Assembly (NCBI RefSeq): GCF_030814995.1
Contig: NZ_JAUSVX010000021.1
Span: forward strand, 62,001-126,000
Direction: 5' to 3'
Length of the DNA stretch: 64,000 bases
Origin: Labrys wisconsinensis
GTDB lineage: Bacteria; Pseudomonadota; Alphaproteobacteria; Rhizobiales; Labraceae
Every line of letters starts with the position of its first letter. Position 1 is the stretch's first letter. The translations under genes and the position numbers were made by a program. This document shows positions 1 to 19,675 of this stretch, piece by piece. The notes under the pieces are model-generated. The model had not been told where the DNA came from. It ran no database searches and saw only the letters and a list, made by a program, of their open reading frames with translations.

Positions 1-206
1 TTGGTGAGGGGGGAGGCGAAGCCCCCGCCGAGATTGATCGGCGACCAGGTCGACAGCGAAATCAGGACGGTGAGGACGATGAAGGCGTAGACGAAGACGA
101 GGGTCGTCGCGACGACGGGCGAGATCAGGATCAACGGCATCAGCCGTTCGAACACAGCGCTTCTGGCGTGCGACGCCGGGTGTGGGGCTTCGGCGGCAAT
201 CGTCAT
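1..206 (-). CDS. Sugar ABC transporter permease (N-terminal part, cut by window edge)
   Basis: Only the first 68 or so codons are present, read from ATG at 206 towards position 1. After a polar N-terminus of about 20 residues comes a long hydrophobic stretch (LMPLILISPVVATTLVFVYA onwards) and then ISLSTWSP, the arrangement of the first transmembrane helix in MalF/UgpA-type inner-membrane permeases. It lies 57 bases downstream of the binding-protein gene on the same strand, so the two are probably co-transcribed as an importer. The ATPase of the set is likely the one at 5039-6178. The second permease is presumably outside the window. Confidence 0.75.
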   Translation of the reverse strand, partial: MTIAAEAPHPASHARSAVFERLMPLILISPVVATTLVFVYAFIVLTVLISLSTWSPINLGGGFASPLT

Positions 207-263
207 GGGCGGCTCTCCCGCGCCGGCAGGACGCGGAGCAGACGGCTGCTCCGCGTGGCTCTG

Positions 264-1547
264 TCAGCCGTTGTTGATGGCTTGCTGCGCGCTCACGAGA
301 GCCGCCGCAAAGCGGTCGACGTTCTTGTTGACGACGAACGATGTGAGGGCGTCGAAATGGGCCTGCACGAACGATGACGGCACCTGCGTGCCGTTGACGC
401 TGGATCCAACGAACTTGTTCTTGGCGAACTTGTCGTAGGACCATTTCAGGTAGGGCGGCAGGGTCGCTTTATCGACGTCGAGACGAGGCGAGACCGACCC
501 CTTCTTCAGGCTGAAGGCAAGCTGCGTTTCGGCCGAACCGATGGTCTTGAGCCAATTGCGGGCCTCCTCCGCATTGGTCGCTCCCTTGGCGATGGGAAAG
601 CAATCGGTGACGATGATGAAGATGTCGTCCGTGCCGGGATGGCTCGTCCATCCGAAGTCTTCGTTGTCCTTCAGGCCCGCCTTCTGGAACTCGCCATAGG
701 CCCAATCGCCGTGCATGTTGAAGGCGGAGCTGCCGTCGATCACCTTGCCCACGGCCTGGTCCCAGCTCAGGGCCGAGTGATCCGGGTTCTGGAATTCCAG
801 GACGCGGAGATGAAGCTTCATGGCTTCCTTCATGTCCGGGGAGTCGAAGGAAAGCTGTCCACTCCAGAGCTTTTGGGTCTGGTCATAGCCCAAGAGGCCG
901 GTGAAGGTATTCTCGAAGAGGCGTGCGTTCGCCCAAATGCCGTTGTCGCCGAGGGACAGGGCATTCACGCCGGCCTTCTTCAGCTTTTCAGCGGCCGGGA
1001 ACCATTGATCCCAGGTAAGGCTGTCGCCAATCTCGATACCGTGCTTGGCGAGAAGCTTCTTGTTGTACCAGACCTCGTTGCAGCGCTGGATGCCGACGTG
1101 CACCGCGTAATACTTGCCATCCTTGCGGATCAGATCCAGGACGGCCGGAGGCACCTTATCCGCCCAGCCCTCGCTCTCGTAGAGACTGGTGATATCTTCG
1201 ACGAAACCGGGGTCGACATACTGGTTCATGAAAGCCGCGCCGGCGTTTCCCTGCCAGGTGTCGGGCGGATTGCCGCCGGCAAGGCGGGCCTGCAACACGG
1301 ATTGCGCATTCGTGCCGCTGCCGCCGGCGACAGCCGCGTTGATCGCCTCGGTTCCCGGAAACCTGGTCTTGTAAGCGTCCATCAGAGCCTTGAGGGCGGC
1401 GGCCTCGCCACCTGACGTCCACCACGAAAAGATCTCGAGCTTGCCTGCCGCCATCGCAGCACGGCCGGCAGCCAGGCCAATCGCCGCCGTACCGGCCAAC
1501 ATAGCGCCGCTCTTCAACAGCGCTCGCCTGCTGAGGTCCCATGTCAT
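264..1547 (-). CDS. Sugar ABC transporter periplasmic substrate-binding protein (family 1), Tat-exported
   Basis: A 427-residue extracellular solute-binding protein, the usual length for UgpB/MalE-like proteins. The N-terminus carries a twin-arginine export motif (SRRALLK, residues 6-12), a hydrophobic segment and an Ala-rich cleavage region ending near AAMAAG, so it is probably exported folded to the periplasm. The mature chain starts KLEIFSWW and has the GGxxPD-type (GGNPPDTWQ) and WDQWFPAAEKL segments common in this family. The ATG at 1547 is preceded by a good ribosome site (GGGAGGGAA). It is the first gene of a unit continuing into the permease at 1-206 and has its own operator-promoter at 1725-1752. 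The sugar class cannot be read from the sequence. Confidence 0.9.
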   Translation of the reverse strand: MTWDLSRRALLKSGAMLAGTAAIGLAAGRAAMAAGKLEIFSWWTSGGEAAALKALMDAYKTRFPGTEAINAAVAGGSGTNAQSVLQARLAGGNPPDTWQGNAGAAFMNQYVDPGFVEDITSLYESEGWADKVPPAVLDLIRKDGKYYAVHVGIQRCNEVWYNKKLLAKHGIEIGDSLTWDQWFPAAEKLKKAGVNALSLGDNGIWANARLFENTFTGLLGYDQTQKLWSGQLSFDSPDMKEAMKLHLRVLEFQNPDHSALSWDQAVGKVIDGSSAFNMHGDWAYGEFQKAGLKDNEDFGWTSHPGTDDIFIIVTDCFPIAKGATNAEEARNWLKTIGSAETQLAFSLKKGSVSPRLDVDKATLPPYLKWSYDKFAKNKFVGSSVNGTQVPSSFVQAHFDALTSFVVNKNVDRFAAALVSAQQAINNG

Positions 1548-1724
1548 GCCTATTCCCTCCCTCTTGGCCGCTCGGACGCTTCAAAAATCCGAAATGCTCG
1601 TGGGTTCAGGCCCTCACCGATCTCTGGCAGGCTCTCGAAAGCCGGACTGCTTCAAGACGGATGAATTCCTGGAACGCGGAGCGTCCGCTCTGGTGACGGT
1701 GCTCTCAGGCCCGCCGGCAAATCA

Positions 1725-1752
1725 TTTGTAAGCGCTTACAGACAGGAGTCAA
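1725..1752 (-). promoter_or_regulatory. Promoter with embedded LacI-family operator
   Basis: The perfect 14-base palindrome TGTAAGCGCTTACA lies at 1727-1740. On the minus strand it sits between a -35 (TTGACT, 1752-1747) and a -10-like TACAAA (1730-1725) separated by 16 bases, so bound repressor would block RNA polymerase directly. The site has the central CG typical of LacI/GalR operators, and the same sequence recurs at 4967-4980. The controlled unit is the binding protein plus permease. The operator is read directly; assigning it to the LacI protein at 2937-4019 is inference. Confidence 0.85.
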
Positions 1753-1760
1753 CGAAATTT

Positions 1761-2927
1761 TCAAGCCATCAGCTGTTGCCATGCTCCACGTGCTGAGCTC
1801 GACCGCAGGGAGGCGTCACAAAGCGCAATTCCCCGCAGGCCGTCTTCCAGCGTTGGGTAAGGGAAGGGCGCCTCCTCTCCCGGGGCCTCCAAGGCGTCCG
1901 CAAAATCGCTGTAGAGAATGGCGAGCGCCTCGTGATAGCCCTCCGGATTGCCGGCCGGCAGGGTCGACTGTCCTGCTCCCACCTCGGTCATCGTGCGTTG
2001 CCCCCTGTAGAGGGTCCGATCGGGCTGGCCCAGCTCGCCGATCAGCAGCGATTCAGGGACGTCCTGGCGCCACTCGATCGAGCCCGTTGTCCCGATGATC
2101 TTGATACGGAGGCAATTGCGATGACCCGGCGCGGCCTGCGTCGCCCATAAGAGGCCCGAAAACCCACGATCGAAGCGCAACTGGATGATGTCGTTGTCGT
2201 CGAGCGCGCGGCCGGGCACCATGGTCATCAGGTTTGCGGACAGTTCGGTGACCTTCGATGCGGTCATGAACTCTGCGAGATTGAAGGCGTGGGTGCCGAC
2301 GTCGCCAAGCGTTCCGGTTGGCCCCGCCTTCGCAGGGTCGGTTCGCCAGCCGCCGGCCTTCGCGCCGAGGTTCTCCGGCTTGTCCGCAAGCCATTCCTGG
2401 AGATACTCGACGTAGACGAAGCGAATATCGCCGAGAGAGCCCTGACCAACGAGCTGGCGGGCCTCCCTGACCATGGGATAGCCGGTGTAGGTGTAAGTCA
2501 TTCCGAAGAAGACGCCGTGGCGTTCCGCCAGCTGCCTGAGCTCGCGGGCCTCCTCCAGAGAGTTCACCAGGGGCTTGTCACAGATCACGCCCATTCCGTG
2601 CTGGATAAGTGTCTTGCACGCATCGAAATGGAGGTGATTGGGCGTGATGACGACGGCAGCCTTGATGCCGTCGCTTCGCGAAGACTCTCCCCTCGCGAGC
2701 GCCCCGACGGTTTCATAGGTGCGATCGGCTTCCACGCCGAGAGCTTCAGCTGCCTCCAGCGACGTCGGCCTGTCGGAGGAGAATACGCCCGCGGCGAGCG
2801 TCCACCGCCCGCTCAGCCGCTGTGCGGCACGATGATAGGGACCAAAGAACGAGCCTCGGCCGCCTCCGATCATGCCGAGAGGTAAGCGCTTCCATCGATC
2901 CAAATCGGACGCCAGCTTATAGACCAT
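1761..2927 (-). CDS. Gfo/Idh/MocA family NAD(P)-dependent oxidoreductase
   Basis: 388 residues, normal for the family. The Rossmann nucleotide-binding loop appears near residue 18 as GMIGGGRGS, followed by VVITPNHLH and the CDKPLV segment that corresponds to the family's EKP catalytic-lysine motif. The C-terminal half has TGTLGDVGTHAFNLAEF with the conserved Asp/His pair. Such enzymes oxidise or reduce a sugar or cyclitol hydroxyl, often at C3. The ATG at 2927 follows TAGGAGATCGCG, a strong ribosome site, 9 bases after the repressor gene stops, so it belongs to the isomerase-repressor-oxidoreductase unit. Substrate unknown; the neighbours suggest a glycoside or sugar derivative. Confidence 0.88.
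   Translation of the reverse strand: MVYKLASDLDRWKRLPLGMIGGGRGSFFGPYHRAAQRLSGRWTLAAGVFSSDRPTSLEAAEALGVEADRTYETVGALARGESSRSDGIKAAVVITPNHLHFDACKTLIQHGMGVICDKPLVNSLEEARELRQLAERHGVFFGMTYTYTGYPMVREARQLVGQGSLGDIRFVYVEYLQEWLADKPENLGAKAGGWRTDPAKAGPTGTLGDVGTHAFNLAEFMTASKVTELSANLMTMVPGRALDDNDIIQLRFDRGFSGLLWATQAAPGHRNCLRIKIIGTTGSIEWRQDVPESLLIGELGQPDRTLYRGQRTMTEVGAGQSTLPAGNPEGYHEALAILYSDFADALEAPGEEAPFPYPTLEDGLRGIALCDASLRSSSARGAWQQLMA
2881..2894. promoter_or_regulatory. Possible weak intragenic operator half-match
   Basis: GGTAAGCGCTTCCA differs from the TGTAAGCGCTTACA operator at two positions and falls within the first codons of the Gfo/Idh gene, just after the repressor gene. It could be an auxiliary site for looping with 1727-1740 or 4967-4980, or chance, since the codons also read sensibly as protein. 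Confidence 0.25.
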
Positions 2928-2936
2928 CGCGATCTC

Positions 2937-4019
2937 CTAAGTTCTTCTGCTTCTCGGTTGCGCGGTCGATCCTCGCACGATGAGCTCCGGCGCAGGCACG
3001 GCTCCGAGCTGGCCGATCTTTCCCTGCAGGACGTCGATGAAGAAGCGACCCGCCATCTCGCCGACGAGCGCATCGGGCACCTTCATCGTCGTGATGCCCG
3101 GTGGAAGCAATCGTGCCAGGTCGATGTCGTCGAACCCTGTGATGGAGACGTCGCCGGGGATGTCGACGCCCATCTCGGACGCCTTGAGCATGCAGCCGAT
3201 CGCCAGGTAATCGTTCCCGCAGATGATGGCCGTCGGTGGCTCGTCCGAGCGCATGACCTTCTCGAAAGCCCTCATGCCGTCTTCGAACTTCCACGCACCT
3301 TCGATGAAATGGCGCGGTCGTATCGCAATCTCGCGTTCAGCCAGCGTGTCCTTCACGCCTTCCCGGCGCGCTCGCGCCCGATCATTGAAGGACGTGTCCT
3401 GTGCGATGAGACCAAAGGACCTGTGCCCCAGATCAAGGAGGTATTCCGTGATCGTCACAAAGGATTGGTAGTTGTCATAGCCGATGACGTTTCGACCGGG
3501 AGCGGTGCCCGGCGCGACATAGACGAGAACGTAGGGCACTCCCTTGTGCTCGAGCATGCCGAGCAGTTCCTCGGGATGATCGGCTCCGACAAGAACCAGG
3601 GCCTCGACGCCCCGTTCGATCATCGCCTGGGCCTGATGTGTCGCAACCTCTCGCGCATAATGCGTGACGCCGACCAGGAGCTCGTACTTCGCCGATGCGA
3701 TCGTCGTCTGCAGGGATTCGACGATGCGGGCGAAGTTCTGATGGTCCAGCGTCGGCATGATGGCGCCGATCGTATGCGTTCGGCTCGTTGCAAGCGCCTT
3801 GGCGGAAGCATTCGGCACCCAATTGAGTTTCCGAATCGCCTGATGAACCCGCTCCTTGACGTCCGGGGAGACCACTTCCGGATTGTTCATGACACGCGAA
3901 ACCGTGGCAGTGCTGACGTTCGCCGCCTTCGCGACATCAGCCAGACGGGCCTGCTGCTGCGTCGCGATCGTTTTTGGCGTCCTTGTCCGCGAAGGCTTGT
4001 CGTCAACGAAGTCGGCCAA
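2937..4019 (-). CDS. LacI/GalR family transcriptional repressor
   Basis: N-terminal LacI helix-turn-helix (LADVAKAANVSTATVSRVMN) with the hinge (ASAKALATSRTHTIG), then a periplasmic-binding-protein-like effector domain running to FIDVLQGK and a short basic tail. About 360 residues. The chosen start is TTG at 4019, preceded by GTGAGG; the frame stays open to a TTG at 4073 that lacks a ribosome site. It is transcribed with the upstream isomerase-like gene and the downstream Gfo/Idh gene from the promoter at 4954-4982, so it is probably autoregulated. Its likely operators are the three TGTAAGCGCTTACA-type sites at 1727, 4967 and 11249. The inducer is presumably the imported compound or its oxidation product. 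Confidence 0.92.
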   Translation of the reverse strand: MADFVDDKPSRTRTPKTIATQQQARLADVAKAANVSTATVSRVMNNPEVVSPDVKERVHQAIRKLNWVPNASAKALATSRTHTIGAIMPTLDHQNFARIVESLQTTIASAKYELLVGVTHYAREVATHQAQAMIERGVEALVLVGADHPEELLGMLEHKGVPYVLVYVAPGTAPGRNVIGYDNYQSFVTITEYLLDLGHRSFGLIAQDTSFNDRARARREGVKDTLAEREIAIRPRHFIEGAWKFEDGMRAFEKVMRSDEPPTAIICGNDYLAIGCMLKASEMGVDIPGDVSITGFDDIDLARLLPPGITTMKVPDALVGEMAGRFFIDVLQGKIGQLGAVPAPELIVRGSTAQPRSRRT

Positions 4020-4073
4020 GGCAACCTCACACTCTATCGAGCCCCAGCTCGGCGAGCCGGCAGACCCAGGCAA

Positions 4074-4943
4074 TCACGCGTCTCGCAGGCGATCCCCCCT
4101 GCTGAGATGCTCTGCTTGCTCCAGACAGGCCATGGCTCGTCCAAGGCAAAGCGCAGTGATCGCTCTGGCGTCCATCGTCCACAAATCATTGCGCGAAAAG
4201 ATCTCGATTTCCATCCACCCGTCGTAGCCCGTCTGCAGCACTGCCGCCGTGAGGCGCGAAACATTCGCCACGCCATCGCCCATCACACCGCGGTCGGCAA
4301 TGGGATCGATCGTATCGAGCCTCCAGTCGCAGAGGTGATGGCCGAAGATCCGCGAGCCGGCGCGTTCGATCGCCCGGTAAACGTTCGGATCCCACCATAT
4401 GTGGAAAATATCGGTGATCACGCCGACATGATCACCGCAGGCTTCGCAGAGATCGAGAGCGAGGTCGAGCGTGTTGACAACGCTTCGCATGGCGGAAAGC
4501 GCGGGATGAAACGGCTCGATCGCCAGCTTGACACCGCAATCGCGGGCAAATTCGACGACTTGTCCAAGACCGTCGGCAACCATTCTGCGCGCCGAGCCGA
4601 TATCTCGGAGCTCGCTCGAAAGCCCGCCTGGAACGATAATGAGGGTTTCGGCCTGCAGCTCGGCCGTCAGCTCGATCTGGCGCCTGGTATGATCGATCGC
4701 GTCCTGGCGTTGCCGCTCCGAGGCGCTTGCAAAGAAACCACCTCGGCTGACGCCGCTGATCTCCAGCCCGAGGCTGCGCACGACCTCTCCGGCCGCGCGT
4801 GGAGACAATCCGTCGAGCCGGTCAGCCCAAAGCCCTACAGCCGATGCGCCGGATTGGCTGACCGCTTCCAGGAAGAGCCGGAATGAGACATCCGGCCCGA
4901 AGGTCGCGTGATTGAAGGAAAAGCGCCGATCGGAATCTGGCAT
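4074..4943 (-). CDS. Sugar phosphate isomerase/epimerase-like TIM-barrel protein (AP endonuclease 2 fold)
   Basis: About 290 residues of the xylose-isomerase-like TIM-barrel superfamily. Metal-ligand segments are visible: LAIEPFHP, ITDIFHIWWDP, GHHLCDW and WMEIEIF, giving the Glu/Asp/His/Glu set expected of a divalent-metal epimerase or lyase. The ATG at 4943 was chosen over an upstream start at 4991 because the operator at 4967-4980 would otherwise lie inside the coding region. The family includes ketose epimerases, inosose dehydratases and 3-keto-glycoside lyases, so beside a Gfo/Idh and a GMC oxidoreductase it may act on a ketosugar or 3-keto-glycoside. The gene ends next to the repressor frame. 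Confidence 0.82.
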   Translation of the reverse strand: MPDSDRRFSFNHATFGPDVSFRLFLEAVSQSGASAVGLWADRLDGLSPRAAGEVVRSLGLEISGVSRGGFFASASERQRQDAIDHTRRQIELTAELQAETLIIVPGGLSSELRDIGSARRMVADGLGQVVEFARDCGVKLAIEPFHPALSAMRSVVNTLDLALDLCEACGDHVGVITDIFHIWWDPNVYRAIERAGSRIFGHHLCDWRLDTIDPIADRGVMGDGVANVSRLTAAVLQTGYDGWMEIEIFSRNDLWTMDARAITALCLGRAMACLEQAEHLSRGDRLRDA

Positions 4944-4953
4944 CGCAAGCCTC

Positions 4954-4982
4954 TGGACAAACGATCTGTAAGCGCTTACAAT
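4954..4982 (+). promoter_or_regulatory. Divergent promoter region with LacI-family operator
   Basis: The perfect palindrome TGTAAGCGCTTACA at 4967-4980 lies between the leftward isomerase gene (starts 4943) and the rightward ATPase gene (starts 5039). On the plus strand it fills the 17-base spacer between TGGACA (4954-4959) and TACAAT (4977-4982). On the minus strand TGTGAC and TACAGA flank the same site with a 16-base gap. One operator can therefore repress both directions, and its geometry matches the promoter at 1725-1752. Confidence 0.87.
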
Positions 4983-5038
4983 AACCGTCACAGCTGGTCA
5001 AGCCGGCAACCCATCAAGAAGAAGGAGGGGCGAGCCCG

Positions 5039-6178
5039 ATGCAAGGCGTCGACCTGGTTGGAATCAACAAGATGTATGGCTCCGTGCATGCGGTCAGGAA
5101 TGTCGACCTGTCGCTCGGGCATGATGAATTCGTTGTCCTGGTCGGCCCGTCGGGTTGTGGGAAGACGACCACCCTGCGTATGGTCGCCGGACTGGAGTCC
5201 ATATCGTCCGGCAGCCTGTCCATTCAGGGGCGCCGCGCCAACGACCTCACGCCCGCGCAACGTGATGTTGCGATGGTCTTCCAGAACTACGCGCTCTACC
5301 CGAACATGAACGTGTATGAAAATATGGCGTTCGGGCTTCGCAACCGAGGCGTCGCCAGAGAGCGGGTCGATCGCGAAATCAGGCGGGCGGCCGAGGTGCT
5401 CGCCCTTGAAAAGCTGCTCGATCGGAAGCCGCGTCAGCTCTCGGGAGGGCAGCAGCAGCGCGTCGCACTGGGCCGCTGCCTGGTCCGGCATCCCAAATTG
5501 TTCCTTTTCGACGAACCTCTGTCGAACCTGGATGCCAAGCTGCGTCTGGAAATGCGGCAGGAACTGAAGCGTCTGAAATCCCGGATCTCGGCGACGTCCA
5601 TCTATGTCACGCACGATCAGATCGAGGCCATGACCCTCGGAGATCGCGTTGTGGTCATGGCAAACGGCGCGGTGCAGCAGGCTGGCACGCCAGAGGACAT
5701 CTATCACCGGCCAAAGAACATCTTCGTCGCGACGTTCATCGGCTCCCCGCCGATGAACATTATCGAGACGACCCTGTCTTCAATGAGCGACAGGCTTTAC
5801 TTCACCGCCGGCGAGCTGAAGCTTCCTGTGCCGGCGCATTTGAAGGAGCCGGTCTCCAAGCTGCCCGGCAAGGCGTTGCTCGGGCTGCGTCCGGAACACA
5901 TCGCGCTCGAGACCGGCCCGGCCCTGGATGCCTTCGTGAAAGGATCCGTCGACATCACCGAACTGCTGGGATCCGAGCAACTGGTGCAGGTTCGTTCGGG
6001 CGAGAGGCAGTTCACGGTCACGCGTGTCGATCCCTTCAGGCGGCTCGCGCCTGGCCAGTCCGTGAGCTTGAGCGTCCCCGCTGAAGAAATCCACGTGTTT
6101 GACCCTCAGACACAGCAACGGATCCGCGCCTCCGCGGTTTGGAACCGTGGTGCAACTCCAAATTCAGACGCTGCTTGA
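5039..6178 (+). CDS. Sugar ABC transporter ATP-binding protein (MalK/UgpC type)
   Basis: 379 residues. Walker A is GPSGCGKTT (about 36-44), the Q-loop follows at FQNYALYP, the signature is LSGGQQQ (134-140), Walker B is LFLFDEP (about 154-160) and the H-loop lies in YVTHDQIEAM. The C-terminal 130 residues form the regulatory OB-like domain of carbohydrate importers (LGLRPEHIAL). The ATG at 5039 has a strong ribosome site (AAGGAGGGG). It should energise the importer whose binding protein and permease are encoded at 1-1547 from a matching operator-promoter. It heads the rightward unit with the CoA-transferase, the DapA-like gene and the GMC gene. Confidence 0.93.
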   Translation: MQGVDLVGINKMYGSVHAVRNVDLSLGHDEFVVLVGPSGCGKTTTLRMVAGLESISSGSLSIQGRRANDLTPAQRDVAMVFQNYALYPNMNVYENMAFGLRNRGVARERVDREIRRAAEVLALEKLLDRKPRQLSGGQQQRVALGRCLVRHPKLFLFDEPLSNLDAKLRLEMRQELKRLKSRISATSIYVTHDQIEAMTLGDRVVVMANGAVQQAGTPEDIYHRPKNIFVATFIGSPPMNIIETTLSSMSDRLYFTAGELKLPVPAHLKEPVSKLPGKALLGLRPEHIALETGPALDAFVKGSVDITELLGSEQLVQVRSGERQFTVTRVDPFRRLAPGQSVSLSVPAEEIHVFDPQTQQRIRASAVWNRGATPNSDAA

Positions 6179-6214
6179 GCTTCGGTTCGGCGCTCGGCGA
6201 GAAGGAATGAGGTT

Positions 6215-7423
6215 ATGCTTCTTCAAGGTATGAAGATCGTGAGTTTCTGCCACTATTTGCAGGGACCATCGGCAACACAATACTTGGCCGACATGGGCGC
6301 TGACGTCATCAAGATCGAGCCGGCGAGGGGGCCGTTTGAGCGAAGCTGGTCCGGCGCCAATGTATTTGTCGGCGGTGTAAGCGGTTTCTTCCTGGCGGGC
6401 AACCGCAACAAGCGAAGCTTCTCCGTCGACTTGAAGAACCCCGAAGGCCGGGAGCTCGTGCTGAAGCTCATCGATCAGGCCGACGCAGTCGTCGAGAACT
6501 TCAGGACGGGTGTGATGGAGAAGCTCGGACTCTCCTACGAGGATCTCAAGAAGAGGAAGCCCGACATCATCTTTGCGAGTGGCACCGGCTGGGGCTTGAA
6601 AGGCCCCATGGTGGGCAGGACCGCGCAGGACCTCATCATCCAGGCTCGTTCGGGCCTGATTGCCGCAACCGGTCCACACGACAAGCCTACTGCGGTCGGT
6701 TGCGCGATTGTCGACCAGCATGGGGGCGCGTTGCTCGCCATGGGCGTGCTGGCTGCTTATGCGAAGAAATTGACCACCGGTCAGGGTACGCATGTCCAAG
6801 GCAGCCTGCTGAATTCCGGGCTCGACCTTCAGACCGAACCTTTGACGAATTACATGTCGAGCCGCCCGGGAAGTGGCGCCTTCAAGCGTCAGGAGAACCT
6901 GATCTCCTGGTATCATGAAGCTCCGACCGGCGTGTACAAGCTCGTCGATGCCGAAGTGGTGATTCCGACAAATGATATTGCGAATATCGCGGAGGCGCTC
7001 GACAGCGACGCGTTGAGGGCTCTGCAGCACCTGGACCGCTACGATGATCGAGACGCGCTTGCGGCCGCCATCGCCGAAGCCGTGCGCGAGTGGACCTACG
7101 AGGATCTCTCGAGGGCTTTTGACGCGCGGAGCGTCTGGTATGGGATCGTTCAGAGCTACGAAGACGTGGCCGCTGACCCTCAAATGCTTGCGAATGACGT
7201 CTTCCGCGAAGTCGATGTGAACGGCGAGACGGCGACGCTCGTCAATCACCCGCTTCGGTACGACGGCAAGGTCCCGGAACTCCACACTCTATCCACCACC
7301 GTAGGTTCGCACACGGCCGAAATTCTTCGTGAGATGGGGATATCGGACGCCGAAGTCGATCGATTGTTCGCAAGGAATATTGTTTTCGGCGCAACGCAAG
7401 CACTCCAGGACGTGGCCGAGTAA
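6215..7423 (+). CDS. Class III CoA-transferase (CaiB/BaiF/FRC family)
   Basis: 402 residues with family hallmarks: an N-terminal Rossmann-like segment (LADMGADVIKIEPA), GNRNKRSFSVDLKNPEGR, VVENFRTGVMEKLGL and the segment GRTAQDLIIQA, whose Asp (about residue 139) aligns with the aspartate that carries the acyl and CoA intermediates in formyl-CoA transferase. Members move CoA between carboxylic acids, here probably activating an acid derived from the imported compound. It follows the ATPase gene by 36 bases and precedes the DapA-like gene by 12, so it is co-transcribed. A CoA-transferase inside a sugar-importer operon is unusual and hints at an acyl or aryl part in the substrate. Confidence 0.9.
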   Translation: MLLQGMKIVSFCHYLQGPSATQYLADMGADVIKIEPARGPFERSWSGANVFVGGVSGFFLAGNRNKRSFSVDLKNPEGRELVLKLIDQADAVVENFRTGVMEKLGLSYEDLKKRKPDIIFASGTGWGLKGPMVGRTAQDLIIQARSGLIAATGPHDKPTAVGCAIVDQHGGALLAMGVLAAYAKKLTTGQGTHVQGSLLNSGLDLQTEPLTNYMSSRPGSGAFKRQENLISWYHEAPTGVYKLVDAEVVIPTNDIANIAEALDSDALRALQHLDRYDDRDALAAAIAEAVREWTYEDLSRAFDARSVWYGIVQSYEDVAADPQMLANDVFREVDVNGETATLVNHPLRYDGKVPELHTLSTTVGSHTAEILREMGISDAEVDRLFARNIVFGATQALQDVAE

Positions 7424-7435
7424 CAGGAGGATTCG

Positions 7436-8401
7436 ATGAAGCTCGACGGCGGCGTGTTGATCGCGAATATCACACCGTTCAAAGACAATCTCGAGGTCGA
7501 TTGGAATGAAATGGCAAGGCGCACGCGCGACCTGGCATCCATCCCCGGCATCCAAGGCTTTGTGGTCAATGCCTTCGCGGCAGAAGCTCCGGCTCTGAGC
7601 CACGACGAGCGTCAGCGCGCCGTGGCCATTCACAAGGACAATATTCGGCCAGGCCAGACGGTGGTTGCTGCCATTCTCGACTGGGCCCCGCCGTCCACGA
7701 TCCGTCGAGGCGAAGAAGCCGGAGAAGCCGGAGCCGACGCGGTCATGGTCTGCTCTCCCTATCTCTCTGCCTATAACGCAAACCACAGCCCGGAATATGC
7801 CTTCCACTTCCACAAGGAAGTCGCGGAAGGTCTGGACATGCCGATCGTCTTGTTCCAGCTCGCCTCGGGTGACCAGCTTTCCTATCCCCACGAGGCCCTC
7901 GTCAAGATGGCTTCGGAGATCGATCAGGTCGTCGGCGTCAAGATGGCGCAGGCGGCAGATTGCGTCCGCTATGACCGGGATTATTACGCTCTCAAGTCGC
8001 TGAACAAGGAGATCATTTGCCTCCCCTCCGTGGGATCGACGTTCTTCCACAACCTCTCGACCGGTGGCGACGGTATCCTTTCGGGGCTCGCCGCCTTTGC
8101 ACCTTACGAGTGCGTCGAGATGCTCAACCTGGTGAAGAACGGGGATCTCAACCGGGCGCAAGCTCTGCACAGGCGCCTCGCGCCGCTTTGCCATGCGATC
8201 TATGGCTTCCCCTACGCGGATCTGCATACCCGCTACAAGGAAGTGGCTTACATGGTCGGAGCCCTTTCCTCTCCGGTGCTGCGGTCGCCCCAGTTGCGCA
8301 TGAAGGCAGCGGAACTCGATCGTCTGTGGAGGGCGGCTCAGATCGCGGACTTGCGTCCGATCCCTGGCGCAGACGAGACCCGTCCTCGCTTGGCTGCCTA
8401 G
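7436..8401 (+). CDS. DapA/NanA superfamily aldolase or dehydratase with variant active site
   Basis: 321 residues of the dihydrodipicolinate synthase/N-acetylneuraminate lyase TIM-barrel family. The N-terminus (GGVLIANITPFKDN) and the Schiff-base lysine region (VVGVKMAQA, Lys169) are clear. The usual GTTGE loop reads NAFAAEAP, and the segment that normally carries the catalytic Tyr (YNxP) reads VLFQLASG, so that Tyr appears to be Phe. Family members cleave or dehydrate 2-keto acids via a lysine imine. The intact lysine argues for activity, while the changed loop and missing Tyr argue for an uncommon substrate or reaction. Ribosome site AGGAGGATTCG; same operon as its neighbours. Confidence 0.85.
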   Translation: MKLDGGVLIANITPFKDNLEVDWNEMARRTRDLASIPGIQGFVVNAFAAEAPALSHDERQRAVAIHKDNIRPGQTVVAAILDWAPPSTIRRGEEAGEAGADAVMVCSPYLSAYNANHSPEYAFHFHKEVAEGLDMPIVLFQLASGDQLSYPHEALVKMASEIDQVVGVKMAQAADCVRYDRDYYALKSLNKEIICLPSVGSTFFHNLSTGGDGILSGLAAFAPYECVEMLNLVKNGDLNRAQALHRRLAPLCHAIYGFPYADLHTRYKEVAYMVGALSSPVLRSPQLRMKAAELDRLWRAAQIADLRPIPGADETRPRLAA

Positions 8402-8510
8402 GTCGGGGCCGACCCGGAACGGCCCGATCCCGCCGCCGCCTCACACGTCAGTCATCCTGCGATCCCGTGCCCTGCCGGTCTTGCCGGCGGGGCGTTCCAT
8501 CGGTGAAAAC

Positions 8511-10175
8511 ATGCGGAAAGAATACGACTACATCATCGTGGGCGCCGGCTCCGCGGGCTGCGTGCTCGCAAGCGAATTGAGCCGCGATCGCGATACCAGG
8601 GTTCTGATCGTCGAGGCTGGACGAGGCGACTGGTCGCCGATGATCCATATGCCCGCCGGCATCCAAAGCCTGATCGAAGGCACGGCGCATAACTGGGCCT
8701 TCCGAACCGTCCCGCAGAAGCACCTCAACAACCGAAGGATGTTCATCCCGCAGGGGAAGGCCATCGGCGGCACCAGCTCGATCAACGGGATGATCTACAT
8801 TCGCGGCAGCAGACAAGACTACGAGAAATGGGCCGCCGAGGGTTGCACCGGGTGGGGTTACCAAGACGTGCTTCCGGTGTTCAAGCGTCTGGAGGCCAAT
8901 ACACGCATACGCGACGAGTATCACGGGAACGACGGTCCGCTGAACGTCACGGATTTCACCTACCTCAATCCGCTCACGGCAACGTTCCTGGAAGCATGCG
9001 ATGAGATCGGACTTCCGAGGAACAAAGACTTCAATGGGGCGACCCAGTTCGGCGCGGGACACTTCCAATATACCGTCAAGGACGGACGAAGGATGAGCGC
9101 TGCGCGCGCTTTCCTGCATCCGGCGCGCAAAAGCCGCCCGAATCTCGATGTCTATGCGAACACCCTCGTATCCAGGATCGTCGTCGAGAATGGACGAGCC
9201 GTCGGCATAGAGCTTGTCGGCAACGACAGGCGTGCCACGACGATTCGTGCGACGCGCGAAGTGATCGTCAGCTCCGGTGCCTTGAATTCGCCCAAGCTTC
9301 TCCTGCTGTCCGGTATCGGTCCGGCTGCCGAACTGAAGCAGGCCGGCGTGAAGGCCATCCACGACTTGCCGGGAGTTGGCAAAGGCCTCCAGGACCACCT
9401 GGACGCCGCCGCGATATGGCACGCATCGACCAGGCTCACCTACGACGACGCGGCGCGGTTCCCATACAAGTACATGCACGGGGCGCGGTATCTGCTTCTT
9501 CGCTCTGGACCCGTGACGTCTTCGGGCTGCGAAGCGGTCGCGTACACCAAGAGTGAGCCGGGCTTGAGCGAGCCGGACGTGTCGGTGCATTTCCTTCCAG
9601 CGTGGGTCATCAACCACGGCTTCACCAAGCCGCCTGGGCACGGGATCACGCTTCACAACAACAATATGCGCCCCGTCAGCCGCGGCGAGGTGAAGCTTGC
9701 GTCGGCTGACCCGCTTGATGCTCCTCTTATCGACCCAAACTTCATGGCCGATCCATTCGACGTGAAGAAGATGATCGGCTGCGTGAAGATCGGACGCGAG
9801 ATCATGGAAACGAAGGCCTTCAGGCCCTATGTGAGCCGCCCCTATGCTCCCCTCGCGGACGTAAGGACCGACGAGCAGATCGTCGAGTTCGTGCGGCAGA
9901 CCGCGGAGACGGATTATCACCCCGTCGGGAGCTGCAGAATGGGCGTCGACGATCTTGCCACTGTGGATCCGAGGCTCAGGGTCAGAGGCTTGGATGGGCT
10001 CCGCGTGGTCGACTCCTCCATCATGCCTCACCTGATCGGAGGCAACACCAACGCTGCCTCTATCATGATCGGTGCGAAGGGGAGCGACATGATCCTTGAA
10101 GACAACGATGGTGGCAGCAGACCCCCTGCGGATCAAAGATCTCGCAGCGTGATGGCGGCCGACGGCGCCGCATGA
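8511..10175 (+). CDS. GMC family FAD-dependent oxidoreductase (choline dehydrogenase-like)
   Basis: 554 residues from ATG 8511; a TTG at 8481 in the same frame has no support. The FAD dinucleotide motif GAGSAG lies at 11-16, the GMC signature QGKAIGGTSSINGMIYIRGS follows, then SGALNSPKLLLLSGIGP, and the catalytic His/Asn pair sits at about 470 (DYHPVGSCRMG) and 514 (GGNTNAASIMIG). Such enzymes oxidise primary or secondary alcohols with FAD, including sugar and glycoside hydroxyls. No signal peptide, so cytoplasmic. It ends the operon starting at 5039 and converges on the enoyl-CoA hydratase gene. Likely role: first oxidation of the imported alcohol or sugar. Confidence 0.92.
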   Translation: MRKEYDYIIVGAGSAGCVLASELSRDRDTRVLIVEAGRGDWSPMIHMPAGIQSLIEGTAHNWAFRTVPQKHLNNRRMFIPQGKAIGGTSSINGMIYIRGSRQDYEKWAAEGCTGWGYQDVLPVFKRLEANTRIRDEYHGNDGPLNVTDFTYLNPLTATFLEACDEIGLPRNKDFNGATQFGAGHFQYTVKDGRRMSAARAFLHPARKSRPNLDVYANTLVSRIVVENGRAVGIELVGNDRRATTIRATREVIVSSGALNSPKLLLLSGIGPAAELKQAGVKAIHDLPGVGKGLQDHLDAAAIWHASTRLTYDDAARFPYKYMHGARYLLLRSGPVTSSGCEAVAYTKSEPGLSEPDVSVHFLPAWVINHGFTKPPGHGITLHNNNMRPVSRGEVKLASADPLDAPLIDPNFMADPFDVKKMIGCVKIGREIMETKAFRPYVSRPYAPLADVRTDEQIVEFVRQTAETDYHPVGSCRMGVDDLATVDPRLRVRGLDGLRVVDSSIMPHLIGGNTNAASIMIGAKGSDMILEDNDGGSRPPADQRSRSVMAADGAA

Positions 10176-10309
10176 CGCTGGGCAGGATCGCATCCGGTGT
10201 GAGGCATGCCGGTGAGGGGCCGTGCCATAACATTGAAGGCGGCCTCATCAGCCCCGGTCCTCGACCGGCGTCGAATGGGTGACGCTCAGGCGTCGCCCGG
10301 GCTTTGGTC

Positions 10310-11095
10310 CTACTCCCACCGTCCCGTGAAACGAGGGGGGCGCTTTTCGAGGAAGGCGTAGCCCCCTTCGGCGGAATCGGGGGATTGTATGATGCTGGCG
10401 AGCAGCTCTCTCTCCAGAGCCAGACCGTTCTCCAGTGTCGCGGCGCTGCACGCGCGAATACAGGCCTTCGTCGCTTGCACAGCCAGCGGCGCCCGGCCGG
10501 CGATCACATTGGCGATCTCGACAGCGCGTGGCACCGTCTGGTCGGTCGGCATCACCTCCCAGACGAGCCCAAGCCTGAACGCTGTCCGGGCATCGATCGG
10601 AAGCCCCGACATGAGCATGAAGGAAGCAGCACCAGATCCGATCAATCGCGGAAGACGCTGAGTGCCGCCGTCGCCCGCAATGCCGCCGATATTGACTTCC
10701 GGTTGGCCAAACCTGGCATTCTCGCCGCAAATGATGAAGTCGCAGGTCATCGCCAGTTCATTGCCGGCGCCGAAGGCGTAGCCGTTCACGGCCGCAATCA
10801 CCGGCTTGGGGAAGCTCTGGATCGTATTCCAGGCTCGGACACGCCTTGGATCGCGTATCGCCTGTCCCGACGTCGCCCGAACCTCCGCAATATCCGCGCC
10901 TGCGCAGAACGCGGCATCTCCGCCAGTCAGAACGACGGCACGGATATCGGCATCCTCCGCCGCGCGGGTGAGATGGTCCGCGATAGCGATGACCATGGAA
11001 TTGGACAGAGCATTGCGCTTTTCCGGTCTATTCAGCCGGACCAGCAACACGTGGTCGGCCAGCCTTTCGTGGCTCACCCAATGCTGGGCCTCCAT
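10310..11095 (-). CDS. Enoyl-CoA hydratase (crotonase family)
   Basis: 261 residues, typical crotonase length. The CoA/oxyanion loop is AAFCAGADI (61-69). Both hydratase glutamates are present, Glu113 in AGNELAMTCD and Glu133 in FGQPEVNIGG, followed by GDGGTQRLPR. With two acid residues it should be a true hydratase or hydratase-lyase rather than an isomerase. It is transcribed divergently from the aldehyde dehydrogenase across a region with the third LacI-type operator (11249-11262). Crotonase, aldehyde dehydrogenase and CoA-transferase together resemble the side-chain shortening of hydroxycinnamoyl-CoA to an aromatic aldehyde and acid, but that substrate is inference. Confidence 0.9.
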   Translation of the reverse strand: MEAQHWVSHERLADHVLLVRLNRPEKRNALSNSMVIAIADHLTRAAEDADIRAVVLTGGDAAFCAGADIAEVRATSGQAIRDPRRVRAWNTIQSFPKPVIAAVNGYAFGAGNELAMTCDFIICGENARFGQPEVNIGGIAGDGGTQRLPRLIGSGAASFMLMSGLPIDARTAFRLGLVWEVMPTDQTVPRAVEIANVIAGRAPLAVQATKACIRACSAATLENGLALERELLASIIQSPDSAEGGYAFLEKRPPRFTGRWE

Positions 11096-11248
11096 TGGAC
11101 GTCTCCGATTTCAAAAGACCGTCCAGGGATAAGCGATTACATTTCGATCATCAATCGGTTTCATGAAACGAACTTGCCATTCTATAAAGATTATATGCGG
11201 CTATGTCGGCTGAAATTCGAACAGCAGACGATAAGGATGAATGCCGCT

Positions 11249-11262
11249 TGTAAGCGCTTTCA
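11249..11262. promoter_or_regulatory. Third LacI-family operator (one mismatch)
   Basis: TGTAAGCGCTTTCA differs by one base from the perfect operator at 1727 and 4967. It lies in the 210-base divergent space between the enoyl-CoA hydratase (starts 11095) and the aldehyde dehydrogenase (starts 11306), 43 bases before the latter. It ties these two genes to the same repressor. No flanking promoter hexamers as clear as at the other two sites were found. Confidence 0.72.
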
Positions 11263-11305
11263 GATCCTGATATCCGTTCAGCGATCACACAGTGCGGAGC
11301 GGCCG

Positions 11306-12787
11306 ATGGCAGCGTTGGGCGAAGACTTTTTGGCGTTCGGCCGCAGCGCGCGGGCCTATTCCGCCCTCATCGATGGCAAGCTGATCGGCGTGGATCAGCG
11401 TGAGCGGCTCGAGCGCGCGAGCCCGGCAACGGGTCGGCCCGTCAGCATCTACCCAAGAGCGACCGACGCGGATGTTCAAGGTGCCATCAAGGCCGCGCGC
11501 CGGGCGGCGGATCTGCGCAGGTGGGCCGCTGTCCCCGGTGCGGAGCGCTCCAGGCTCATTCTTCGGGTCGCCGGGCTCATCGACAAGCATCGCGAGGAGC
11601 TGGGTCTCATCGAGTGCCTGGAGGGAGGCAAGCCGATCTCCGCCGTCGACGGCGAGATTCAGGGGTCGATCGACCTGTGGGAGTACGCGGCAACCCTCGC
11701 TCGTCACATGTATGGCGACACCCACGATCAGCTCGGGGAGCAGACGATGGGTCTCGTCTTCCGCGAGCCGATCGGCGTTGTCGGAATGATCACGCCTTGG
11801 AATTTCCCGCTCCTCATCGCGAGTCAGAAATTGCCGTTCGCGCTGGCGGCCGGCTGCTGCGCGGTCTTGAAGCCCAGCGAGTTCACATCCGGAACGACCC
11901 TGCGGCTCGGCGAGCTTCTGCTGGAGGCAGGTCTTCCCGACGGCGTCGTCAACGTCATCGCCGGCGATGGTCCCACGGCCGGGCGCCCGCTTTGCGAAAG
12001 CGCCGCGGTCGACATGATCTCGTTCACGGGCTCGACCCGAGTCGGTAAGGAAATCCGGACGTTCGGCGACAGCCTGAAACGGATCTCGCTGGAGCTCGGT
12101 GGAAAGTCCGCGCATATCGTCTGCGCGGACGCAGACCTGGACGCCGCTGCGGCGGCGGTCGTTCAGGGTGTCACGATCAACGCGGGGCAGTGCTGTGTCG
12201 CGGGCTCTCGGCTTTTGGTCGAACGGTCCGTGGCGGAGGCATTCTGCGAGCGCGTCGTTGACAAGATGCGGGCTCTGCGCGTCGGCGACCCGACCGACAC
12301 GGCGACCCAGATCGGGCCGCTCATCAACGATGCGCAATTCCAACGTGTAACGTCATATGTCAGGAGAGGCATCGAAGAAGGGGCGACCTTGTTGCTCGGA
12401 GACGATCAACCTCAGGCCGATGGCTATTTCGTATCCCCGGTCGTTTTCGACAAGGTCAATCCGGAAATGGCGATCGCACAGGAGGAAATATTCGGGCCGG
12501 TTCTGTCGGTCTTGCGCTTCGACTCGGCCGATGAAGCGATCGCGATCGCAAATGGAACACGTTACGGCCTGGCGGCAGGCGTCTGGACCAGGAGCCTGGA
12601 CAAGGCCTTCCATTTCGCCCGCCGGCTCAATGCCGGCACCGTCGAAGTCAATACCTATCTAGCCGGCGCGCCGGAGCTGCCCCTGTCAGGCTATGGCGAC
12701 AGCGGACTTGGCCATGAGAAGAGCCGCTTCGCGCTCGATGAGTTCACCAGGGTGAAGACCGTGCAGCTCAAGTTCGGGCACGCCTGA
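11306..12787 (+). CDS. NAD(P)-dependent aldehyde dehydrogenase
   Basis: 493 residues from ATG 11306, which follows GCGGAGCGG; the frame is open far upstream, but there it only runs opposite the hydratase gene. Family landmarks: PWNFP with the oxyanion Asn166, the cofactor loop FTGSTRVGKEI (240-250), the general base Glu263 in LELGGKS, and the nucleophile Cys297 in NAGQCCVAG. The C-terminus has EEIFGPVLSVL. Oxidises an aldehyde to the acid in the cytosol. The operator at 11249-11262 places it in the LacI regulon, where it would take the aldehyde made by the hydratase-lyase, the DapA-like enzyme or GMC oxidation. It marks the right end of the lower-GC block. Confidence 0.93.
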   Translation: MAALGEDFLAFGRSARAYSALIDGKLIGVDQRERLERASPATGRPVSIYPRATDADVQGAIKAARRAADLRRWAAVPGAERSRLILRVAGLIDKHREELGLIECLEGGKPISAVDGEIQGSIDLWEYAATLARHMYGDTHDQLGEQTMGLVFREPIGVVGMITPWNFPLLIASQKLPFALAAGCCAVLKPSEFTSGTTLRLGELLLEAGLPDGVVNVIAGDGPTAGRPLCESAAVDMISFTGSTRVGKEIRTFGDSLKRISLELGGKSAHIVCADADLDAAAAAVVQGVTINAGQCCVAGSRLLVERSVAEAFCERVVDKMRALRVGDPTDTATQIGPLINDAQFQRVTSYVRRGIEEGATLLLGDDQPQADGYFVSPVVFDKVNPEMAIAQEEIFGPVLSVLRFDSADEAIAIANGTRYGLAAGVWTRSLDKAFHFARRLNAGTVEVNTYLAGAPELPLSGYGDSGLGHEKSRFALDEFTRVKTVQLKFGHA

Positions 12788-12836
12788 CCGAAGGTGCGTC
12801 GCGGACGCGGCCGCCGCGATCGGCTATAGGGCGTGC

Positions 12837-14021
12837 ATGTCGCACGCCCCACGCCATCCCTTCGCCTTCGCGCTGCTCGTGTCCGGCACGGTGCTGGGCA
12901 TTGCCGGCACCGACCTGGTGCTGCCGGCCGTGCCCGGCCTGCCGCGCCTCCTCGGCGGCACGCCGGAGGCGGCGCAGCTCGTGCTCGCCGCCTTCACCGG
13001 CGGAGCGGCCGTCGGCCTGGTCCTGTTCGGTGAGCTCGGGGCGCGCTTCGACCAGCGCCGGCTGCTTGTCGGCTCGCTGCTCGCCTATGCCGGGATCTCC
13101 GCCCTGTGCATCTTCAGCCCGTCGCTCGACGTGCTGATCGGCGCCCGCTTCCTGCAGGGCGCCGCGGGATCGGCGGCGGCGGTGTTCGCGCCGGGCATGC
13201 TGCGCGCCCTCTATGGCGATGCCGGCGCCGTGCGCGCGCTCGGCCTGCTCGGCAGTATCGAGGCGCTGACCCCCGCCCTGGCGCCGGTCGCCGGCGTCTG
13301 GCTGTTCGAGCATTTCGGCTGGCGCGCGGCGTTCGACACGATCGCCGTGCTGGCGCTCGTCTGCGCCGTGCTGCTGCAGGCCGGGCGCGCGTCCTTGCCG
13401 GCCCCGCGTGCCCAGAGGGGGCGGGGCGGCTATGGCAGGCTCCTCGCCAGCCCGCCCTTTCTCTGCCTGGCGCTGAGCCAGGCCTTCACGCTGGGCGCGC
13501 TTCTGGTGTTCGTGTTCGGCGCGCCCGCCGTGATCACCACCTCGCTCGGCGGCAGCCTCGGCGATTTCATCGTCATGCAGATGAGCGGTATCGCCCTGTT
13601 CGTCCTCGCCGCGAACCTCACCGGCCGCATCGTGCCGCGCGTCGGCGCCGGGCGGGTGATCCTCGCGGGAACGCTGGTCTCGGCCCTGGGCGGGACGGCG
13701 ATGCTCGCCTATGCGCTGGCCGGCGGCGGCGACATCGCGGTGGTGATCGCCATCTTCCTGCTGCTCAATCTCGGGCTCGGCCTGCGTGGGCCGCCGGGCT
13801 TTCACGCCGCCATCGTCGCGGCGGAGGGAGACGATGCCCGCGGCGCCGCGCTGGTTGTGGTCGCCATCCTGCTCGCCACCGCGCTCGGCACCGCAGCCGT
13901 GGCGCCGTTCATCGCCGGCGGCCTGGTCTCGATCGCCGCCGGGGCGGCGGTCCTGTCGGTCTCGGCCGTCCTGCTGCTGGCGAGGCCGCGGGCCCGGCGC
14001 CTGCCTCAGAGCACGCCGTAG
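12837..14021 (+). CDS. MFS transporter (Bcr/CflA-like drug exporter)
   Basis: 394 residues with about twelve hydrophobic helices. The helix 2-3 loop reads GELGARFDQRRLL, a degenerate MFS motif A, and helix 1 has GTDLVLPAVPGLP, as in Bcr/CflA proton-driven exporters. Inner membrane. The coding sequence is far richer in GC than the preceding aldehyde dehydrogenase, so the composition boundary lies between 12787 and 12837. Its last 16 bases overlap the convergent RraA-type gene. Substrate not predictable. Confidence 0.85.
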   Translation: MSHAPRHPFAFALLVSGTVLGIAGTDLVLPAVPGLPRLLGGTPEAAQLVLAAFTGGAAVGLVLFGELGARFDQRRLLVGSLLAYAGISALCIFSPSLDVLIGARFLQGAAGSAAAVFAPGMLRALYGDAGAVRALGLLGSIEALTPALAPVAGVWLFEHFGWRAAFDTIAVLALVCAVLLQAGRASLPAPRAQRGRGGYGRLLASPPFLCLALSQAFTLGALLVFVFGAPAVITTSLGGSLGDFIVMQMSGIALFVLAANLTGRIVPRVGAGRVILAGTLVSALGGTAMLAYALAGGGDIAVVIAIFLLLNLGLGLRGPPGFHAAIVAAEGDDARGAALVVVAILLATALGTAAVAPFIAGGLVSIAAGAAVLSVSAVLLLARPRARRLPQSTP

Positions 14022-14665: not shown

Positions 14666-14684
14666 CGGCGCGTCTCCTTGGCGG

Positions 14685-17457: not shown

Positions 17458-17572
17458 CGTCACTCCGGGGAGATGGAAGAAGGAGCCGCCCGCGAGAGGG
17501 GCGGGGAGGGATCGGTGCACGAGACTAGGCCGGAATCCGGCCGGGCCGGCAGCAATCGCGCTGGAACCTCAC

Positions 17573-17702: not shown

Positions 17703-17747
17703 CTGGGGCAAACGTCGCGTCTCTAGGAGACGGCGCCGGGGCCCCCC

Positions 17748-18782: not shown

Positions 18783-18891
18783 GGCTGTTCTCCTCTGTTG
18801 GTGGGGTGGGGAGCGCCTTGGCCGACGGCGCGGCTGGCGCTCTCGCAGGTTTGTCGGTTCATCCGGACGGCACGGCATGTCCGCCGCCCCG

Positions 18892-19668: not shown

Positions 19669-19675
19669 GGCCGCC

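Follow-up and report, generated by a model that had tools for sequence, protein, structure and literature searches.

The subject of this analysis is a catabolic gene island of Labrys wisconsinensis, located at the left end of a 64,000-nucleotide stretch (NCBI RefSeq assembly GCF_030814995.1, contig NZ_JAUSVX010000021.1, positions 62,001 to 126,000; hereafter the window) of an 8.93 Mb assembly of 55 contigs (G000), in which no match to the bacterial 16S rRNA family was found. The system comprises 13 genes in about 15.3 kb (contig C21, about 59,536-74,787), including a LacI-family regulator, a sugar-type importer and CoA-dependent enzymes. An earlier note on this DNA had placed it at positions 1..12787 and had named the families of ten genes; Pfam and NCBIfam scans of all 13 gene products bear out every one of these families, and the extent has to be revised, as the solute-binding operon runs past the left edge of the window into locus L004, where it continues with MalF, MalG and a short-chain dehydrogenase (SDR) and ends near C21:59,536. 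The GC content is 0.617 in window 1-12787 and 0.608 in L004 15500-18000, compared with 0.707 (window 12787-64000) and 0.718 (L004 1-14000) in the flanks, which places a composition step at both island edges. Near relatives of the island CoA-transferase and DapA-like protein, the only two island proteins with which this search was made, were not found in four congeners (best E 1.6e-72 vs 3.0e-271 and best E 6.1e-16, respectively), and because of this result and the low GC content the island was probably acquired horizontally. An empty insertion site was not demonstrable in the congeners, where one flanking gene was unmatched and the other had distant family members only, and no tRNA gene was found in L004 or in the window.

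The malF-like permease gene begins in window 1-140, which holds its N-terminal part, and continues left of the window (L004 17181-18140, reverse strand); it is followed by malG (L004 16315-17181, reverse strand) and the SDR gene (L004 15536-16303, reverse strand), the product of which exceeded the NF009386 equivalog cut-off for 3-ketoacyl-ACP reductase (317.6 vs 250). The solute-binding protein of the CUT1 sugar type (264-1547, reverse strand; PF13416) had GlcS as its best NCBIfam model (97 bits, below the cut-off of 500) and MalG had GlcU (192.5 bits, below the cut-off of 340), which places the importer nearest to glucose ABC systems; all NCBIfam verdicts given here refer to the best models listed for each protein, at most 25. 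The Gfo/Idh/MocA oxidoreductase (1761-2927, reverse strand) has 3v5n as its nearest solved relative (336.5 bits) and reached the cut-off of none of the seven models listed, among them the two that bear on glycoside 3-dehydrogenase activity, NF058561 (33.8 vs 750) and the levoglucosan dehydrogenase model NF052479 (105.4 vs 650); its model matches are sugar or inositol dehydrogenases. The LacI-family regulator (2937 to about 4019, reverse strand, start codon uncertain) and a xylose-isomerase-like TIM barrel of the AP_endonuc_2 family (4074-4943, reverse strand; PF01261) come next. The nearest solved relatives of the TIM barrel are 3ju2 (225.6 bits), 3qc0 and 7vpf, and it carries the motifs EPF, DIFH, HLCDW and EIEIF, which we take to hold the likely metal ligands. 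The importer ATPase of the MalK/UgpC type (5039-6178, forward strand) scored above the subfamily cut-off of NF008653 (462.5 vs 432). The widest gap within the island, calculated from the gene coordinates, is 213 bases (1548-1760).

The remaining genes form the CoA-dependent part. A class III CoA-transferase of the CaiB type (6215-7423, forward strand; PF02515; best NCBIfam score 186.2 vs 750) has an aspartate, Asp167, that is invariant in a seven-sequence alignment and is presumably the nucleophile. It is followed by a DHDPS/DapA-like protein of a distinct clade, here termed DapA* (7436-8401, forward strand; below the cut-off in all seven NCBIfam models listed), and by a GMC-type FAD alcohol oxidase or dehydrogenase with HPVGS and NTNA motifs (8511-10175, forward strand), which belongs to the choline-dehydrogenase subfamily (NF002550, 625.8 vs 605). 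An enoyl-CoA hydratase (10310-11095, reverse strand; PF00378) has the crotonase motifs NELAM and GQPE, whose glutamates we take to be the catalytic residues, and an aldehyde dehydrogenase with its catalytic motifs (11306-12787, forward strand; PF00171) is the last gene of the island. In these model lists the SDR is the only catabolic enzyme that passes an equivalog cut-off, and the GMC protein and MalK pass subfamily cut-offs. No CoA ligase, ring-cleavage gene or acyl-CoA dehydrogenase was detected among the 13 gene products by the Pfam and NCBIfam scans. The subfamily of the GMC protein, together with an aldehyde dehydrogenase whose best model is BADH, raises the question of a quaternary-amine or choline-like pathway, in which these two enzymes would act as BetA and BetB, and CaiB and the enoyl-CoA hydratase as carnitine CoA enzymes. 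The sugar importer, the Gfo/Idh protein and LacI do not fit such a pathway, and we regard it as highly improbable. An assignment to BetAB and carnitine enzymes proper was rejected, since the scores fall below the betA (543.1 vs 732.1), BADH (441.5 vs 668.6) and L-carnitine CoA-transferase (89.6 vs 413) equivalog cut-offs.

Three near-identical operators connect the two parts. The perfect palindrome TGTAAGCGCTTACA occurs at 1727-1740, upstream of and facing the solute-binding operon, and again at 4967-4980, between the divergent TIM-barrel and malK genes; the third site, TGTAAGCGCTTTCA at 11249-11262, has one mismatch and lies between the divergent enoyl-CoA hydratase and aldehyde dehydrogenase genes. 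A pattern search of the whole 8.93 Mb genome with TGTAAGCGCTTNCA returned these three sites only, and the backwards pattern used as a control returned none. When up to three mismatches were allowed, six matches were found in the window (the three operators and positions 2881, 6376 and 11128) vs 0.61 expected, and the highest count among 100 shuffles was four. The weak site at 2881-2894 (two mismatches) lies inside the Gfo/Idh gene and is a possible auxiliary operator, or may be due to chance. All 13 genes, presumed to form five transcription units, are downstream of one of the three operators, where we infer transcript continuity from gene spacing and strand. A palindrome precedes both the operon of the LacI gene itself and the importer genes, as in a local LacI sugar regulon. 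These features support the view, already expressed in the earlier note, that one LacI regulon would cover the sugar front end as well as the CoA set. That unrelated genes have merely gathered on the island, with operators that do not function for all of them, is very unlikely: the three operators all precede genes of the island, no further site turned up in the 8.93 Mb genome, and a second copy of the CoA set, next to a LacI gene, is found elsewhere in that genome. Such a chance neighbourhood would be consistent with a GMC gene (86 % identical) that lies in another context in genome G072, beside a mere fragment of DapA*, and with the fact that the regulon was deduced from sequence.

Local LacI regulons for sugar use, in which LacI is tied to importer and catabolic genes by repeated palindromes, are described in the portion of PMC4052901 that was consulted. 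The island is like them in having LacI, importer and catabolic genes under repeated palindromes, and differs in that its targets include a CoA-transferase, a crotonase and a GMC protein; the word CoA has no occurrence in the main text of that paper. Palindromes of the LacI type were also found next to CaiB or importer genes in other loci, without a chance control. An exact copy of the island operator is present in L113 and L114 between the LacI gene and a 431-residue gene, which lies beside MalF/MalG/MalK-like genes and presumably encodes a solute-binding protein. Another perfect palindrome, TGAAATCGATTTCA, occurs at the CaiB/LacI and enoyl-CoA hydratase/MFS gene pairs both in genome G039 (L071 10524 and 16646) and in Bradyrhizobium sp. 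4, on its plasmid p4_1 (L080 5971 and 11926), accompanied by a GH88-like gene and by a DapA-like gene that is a different one. A Bradyrhizobium with a LacI-CaiB-GH88-DapA cluster is recorded under NZ_CP064687.1. Six sites of the TGAAAGCGCTTTCA type were found in G049:C6. At the limits used, palindrome matches were absent from L067, L075, L117, L118 and L122, and L115 had a two-mismatch match only.

Comparison with other genomes and plasmids was conducted, and the island looks like two joined modules, one consisting of LacI, TIM barrel, Gfo/Idh and importer and the other being the CoA core (CaiB, DapA-like protein, enoyl-CoA hydratase, GMC, aldehyde dehydrogenase and SDR). The first module is represented on a plasmid of Agrobacterium sp. 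T29: alongside LacI there are sugar phosphate isomerase/epimerase (TIM-type) genes, a CUT1 importer and a Gfo/Idh gene whose product is 44 % identical, and the 15 kb examined contain no CoA gene. The CoA core re-occurs in a second cluster of the host genome (G000:C2, L066/L067), together with LacI, MaoC and a ribose-type (CUT2) importer; identities to the island are 53 % for CaiB, 47 and 51 % for GMC, 47 % for aldehyde dehydrogenase, 45 % for SDR, 29 % for DapA* and 47 % for enoyl-CoA hydratase, the latter over a 217-residue piece cut by the stretch boundary. The same core set is present in G049:C4, and G049:C6, in which no SDR was found, holds two CaiB, a DapA-like gene, enoyl-CoA hydratase (31 %), aldehyde dehydrogenase, three GMC genes and a GH88-like protein. 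In the stretches fetched from G000:C2 and G049, no BLAST match to the Gfo/Idh or TIM-barrel protein of the window was obtained. Genome G207 has LacI, TRAP-like genes, enoyl-CoA hydratase (60 %), aldehyde dehydrogenase (61 %), CaiB (51 %), a distant GMC (30 %), DapA*, Gfo/Idh and an IlvD-like gene, and a partial set is found in L072 of genome G044 (CaiB, GMC 48 %, aldehyde dehydrogenase 46 % and a ribose-type ATPase, with no DapA or enoyl-CoA hydratase match in the stretch). GMC accompanies the CoA core in four clusters, and for this reason it may act on the part that receives CoA instead of on the sugar. A separate observation concerns locus L075 (G072:C61, 8010-9934), from another family, where the GMC protein 86 % identical to that of the window lies beside a mere fragment of the DapA-like protein, 83 % identical over the matched residues 273-320; the neighbours are SDRs, a class II aldolase and an importer of the ribose type. 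This is a sign of recent transfer and decay.

The co-occurrence of CaiB and DapA* was surveyed in 387 genomes of the class. The CaiB clade profile was matched in 20 genomes at E <= 1e-105, a limit of our own choice, and the DapA* clade profile in 40 genomes above 350 bits, a cut supported by the lack of scores between 356 and 294 bits. Both were present in 19 genomes (Fisher p about 3e-20; 3e-19 if the host is excluded). This p value takes no account of phylogeny, and some of the proteins used to build the DapA* profile had been found beside CaiB. The two genes lie less than 10 kb apart in 14 of the 20 CaiB-positive genomes. Among 24 CaiB regions, enoyl-CoA hydratase was found nearby in 18, DapA* in 15, SDR in 13, MaoC in 12, LacI in nine and GMC and aldehyde dehydrogenase in four each; these labels were assigned with a reference set of our own and limits chosen ad hoc, and the counts for LacI, SDR, enoyl-CoA hydratase and the others stand without a measured background. 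Genome G049, fetched because both genes are present, is left out of the 20-genome and 24-region counts and brings the region list to 26; L072-L077 stand outside the counts as well (L073 and L077 were used in alignments only), and L119, L122 and L123 are short contigs. A scan of named genomes with DapA* returned one distant Chloroflexi match only. From these counts CaiB, DapA* and a hydratase would be the most conserved part of the system, with import and the oxidation of sugar and alcohol as a changeable front end.

Several further genes were noticed in these regions. An old-yellow-enzyme family protein occurs with DapA* and CaiB in L113, L115, L118, L120, L122 and L126; that of L113, the sole one scanned, is nearest to BaiCD (340.6, below the cut-off of 825), and L113 has CUT1-like importer genes as well, together with an FAD protein that is fumarate-reductase-like; the set resembles a bile-acid operon with sugar-type control. 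L126 also has a sulfatase-family gene (12880-14505), only a few kb away from the CaiB, MaoC and DapA* genes, which suggests sulfated substrates in this lineage. Two GGDEF-EAL proteins flank the DapA*-CaiB-MaoC group of L111 on both sides (3037-5334 and 11547-13553), and a BLAST relative lies beside the corresponding group in L112.

DapA* shares the fold and the Schiff-base lysine of the DapA superfamily aldolases (DHDPS, NAL, KDG aldolase and HOGA) and differs from them in residues characteristic of pyruvate aldolases. The lysine (K169) is kept in all 19 aligned DapA* sequences, whereas the equivalents of Thr44 and Thr45 of E. coli DapA are lost in 19 of 19 and the position of Tyr133 is an invariant Phe (F140). 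When seven DapA-like rows were scored against E. coli DapA, neither Thr was kept in any and Tyr133 was replaced by Phe in all. The carboxylate-binding motif GTTGE has become GHASE-like in DapA* and AFAAE in the window protein, and the solved relative 3si9, aligned by profile, has the same replacements as DapA*. The AlphaFold model is a barrel (pLDDT 89.4, pTM 0.89) with K169 at the end of strand 165-170, a position that we take to be as in class I aldolases. A plain pyruvate or KDG aldolase was rejected as a candidate function because the Thr-Thr/Tyr catalytic residues are lost. A pyruvate-type aldol reaction by DapA* thus appears unlikely, and Schiff-base chemistry on another ketone is left open.

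Taken together, the island is tentatively read as a LacI-repressed system, probably horizontally acquired, for one imported sugar-like or glycosylated compound; we prefer this reading among those considered and give it somewhat less than an even chance. The compound would enter through the CUT1 importer, and it or a derivative would free LacI from the operators. Gfo/Idh and the TIM barrel would carry out an oxidation followed by rearrangement or release of the sugar part. The GMC enzyme would convert a CH2OH group of the remaining part into an aldehyde, aldehyde dehydrogenase would convert this into an acid, and CaiB would transfer CoA to the acid. Enoyl-CoA hydratase would then hydrate the enoyl-CoA and the SDR would oxidize the 3-hydroxyacyl-CoA to the 3-ketoacyl-CoA. 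As no acyl-CoA dehydrogenase is encoded among the 13 genes, the double bond would either come with the substrate, as in an allylic alcohol or the corresponding acid, or be introduced by dehydration. DapA* could finally form a Schiff base with a ketone unlike pyruvate and cleave a C-C or C-O bond in place of a thiolase or a classical aldolase.

Several observations weigh against this scheme. The order of steps is deduced from protein families, the best-scoring models of the GMC protein and aldehyde dehydrogenase are those for choline and betaine aldehyde, and the residues lost from DapA* could also mean a role other than that of an aldolase. In six of the 20 CaiB-positive genomes no DapA* gene lies within 10 kb of the CaiB gene (on another contig in five, absent in G341). 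The five-gene core of CaiB, DapA*, enoyl-CoA hydratase, GMC and aldehyde dehydrogenase is complete in only three of the 24 CaiB regions, two of them from the host; both G049 regions also hold it, outside that count. The five-gene set is therefore a minority form on these counts, and the general partnership would be that of CaiB, DapA* and a hydratase. Importer genes of the TRAP, Liv or polar-amino-acid type occur in relatives, and for this reason the CoA core need not serve sugars. The division into two modules is not clean either: on plasmid pT173c of Ensifer canadensis (L131 8995-11900) the nearest plasmid relative of the window Gfo/Idh protein (53 % identical) adjoins a GMC gene and importer genes of the ribose type, and the 19 kb examined contain no CoA gene; GMC may accordingly belong to the sugar half, which slightly lowers our confidence in the scheme. 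The possibility, raised in the earlier note, that GMC oxidizes the sugar draws support from the Ensifer plasmid and loses it to the four clusters in which GMC goes with the CoA core.

The reading that follows the earlier note is that an aryl glycoside is imported, that it is deglycosylated by oxidation and elimination (Gfo/Idh or GMC with the TIM barrel), and that a phenylpropanoid-like aglycone then undergoes CoA-dependent side-chain shortening by GMC, aldehyde dehydrogenase, CaiB and enoyl-CoA hydratase. The CoA-dependent shortening of hydroxycinnamates proceeds by Fcs, Ech and Vdh, and a hydratase followed by an aldehyde dehydrogenase, as in hydroxycinnamate degradation, counts in favour of this proposal. 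The island shares with Fcs-Ech-Vdh the logic of CoA thioester, crotonase and aldehyde dehydrogenase, and differs from it in a CoA-transferase in place of the ligase and in the extra GMC, DapA*, SDR, sugar importer and LacI. The second-best solved relative of the GMC protein is a chloramphenicol-inactivating oxidoreductase (386.5 bits), and Gfo/Idh and GMC are paired with a sugar importer on the Ensifer plasmid. According to the available part of PMC11837543, beta-HPV is oxidized in Sphingobium and Novosphingobium by HpvZ/HpvY and then VceA/VceB, and the choline-dehydrogenase-like HpvY acts on a lignin-derived aryl alcohol in Novosphingobium. This system has the choline-dehydrogenase-like GMC protein, aldehyde dehydrogenase and CoA-linked conversion in common with the island, and no LacI or sugar regulon is described for it in that part of the paper (PMC11837543), unlike in the island.

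Operons that join oxidoreductases to TIM barrels are known for O- and C-glycosides; in Agrobacterium one such operon contains two oxidoreductases and two sugar phosphate isomerase/epimerase proteins, and AtOGE (8BVK) has no sequence similarity to the C-glycoside enzymes (all from the consulted excerpt of PMC10628242). The glycoside oxidation-elimination operons (AtOGE, puerarin DgpABC/CGE and levoglucosan Lgd) share with the island a Gfo/Idh protein beside a xylose-isomerase-fold TIM barrel, while the island has one TIM barrel only, added CoA enzymes and a Gfo/Idh protein far below the levoglucosan dehydrogenase cut-off. The TIM-barrel comparison gives no support to the oxidative deglycosylation suggested in the earlier note: phmmer at E 10 returned none of 8BVK, 7DNN, 7EXB and 7EXZ among 21 sequences, which is weak evidence against it, given that the eliminase families are themselves dissimilar in sequence. 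Neither a second TIM barrel (a hydratase) nor a CGE beta subunit is among the 13 gene products scanned, and the largest gap of 213 bases leaves no room for an extra gene of the CGE subunit type. Nor does anything point to an aryl aglycone: neither a CoA ligase nor an aromatic-ring gene is present among the 13, and GMC accompanies the CoA core where no match to Gfo/Idh or the TIM barrel was found. The aryl-glycoside pathway is on balance unlikely.

The substrate could also be a single sugar, either plain or rare, or a polyol, cyclitol or sugar acid, with no aglycone at all; it would be oxidized to an acid, and the acid itself would be activated with CoA. The LacI regulator and the sugar and inositol dehydrogenases matched by Gfo/Idh are consistent with this, and dehydratases of the sugar-acid type occur in related CaiB regions (MR_MLE in four of the 26 regions; IlvD in G207, the latter by BLAST against our own reference). 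A parallel is deoxyribonate breakdown, which is said to pass via glyceryl-CoA. CoA-linked deoxyribonate catabolism is described in the consulted part of PMC6365646. On the other side, it is hard to see what the enoyl-CoA hydratase and the choline-type GMC enzyme would do with a polyhydroxy acid, and we know of no CoA-dependent sugar pathway with this gene set. A plain substrate is possible and rather doubtful, and it ranks close behind the preferred reading, that of one sugar-like or glycosylated compound with CoA-dependent breakdown, because of the dehydratases in the relatives and the importer nearest to glucose systems.

To the right of the island, window 14006-21406 has a host-like GC content and holds what appears to be another catabolic cluster, with genes for a polyamine-type ABC importer, for an SDR, for a dehydratase resembling IlvD/Edd and for an RraA-like protein, followed by an IclR-like gene at 21537. 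The labels of this cluster were taken from a reading of the translations only, and the window search found no operator match with up to three mismatches in it.

Judged by titles and abstract openings, searches of the openly licensed literature gave no description of this gene set, in agreement with the earlier note, which knew of no described pathway with this exact set. Nor, within this scope, was such a cluster found to be assigned to a plain sugar or polyol, an outcome that the note had named as refuting its idea. The observation made in that note, including the three operators (two perfect, one near-perfect, and the only such sites in the genome), is confirmed and its interpretation half supported, with deglycosylation and the aryl aglycone as guesses. 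The most interesting lead is the conserved pair of CaiB and DapA* with its non-canonical DapA active site. DapA* might represent an undescribed class of Schiff-base lyases that act on CoA-pathway intermediates and not on pyruvate adducts; with CaiB it would form a transferable cassette for degradation, one that takes the place of thiolase or ligase chemistry and to which varied sugar-releasing and import front ends are attached under LacI, the window being one such composite; this is a speculative idea to which we give a modest chance. LacI loci are normally taken as simple sugar operons, and here a LacI regulon appears to contain a CoA-transferase, a crotonase and a choline-type flavoenzyme. 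Where members of the DapA* clade are annotated in the plasmid records examined, they bear the name 'dihydrodipicolinate synthase family'. If confirmed, the system would provide a function for this clade, by which many automatic names would be corrected, and would open a route for the breakdown of sugar-linked natural products.

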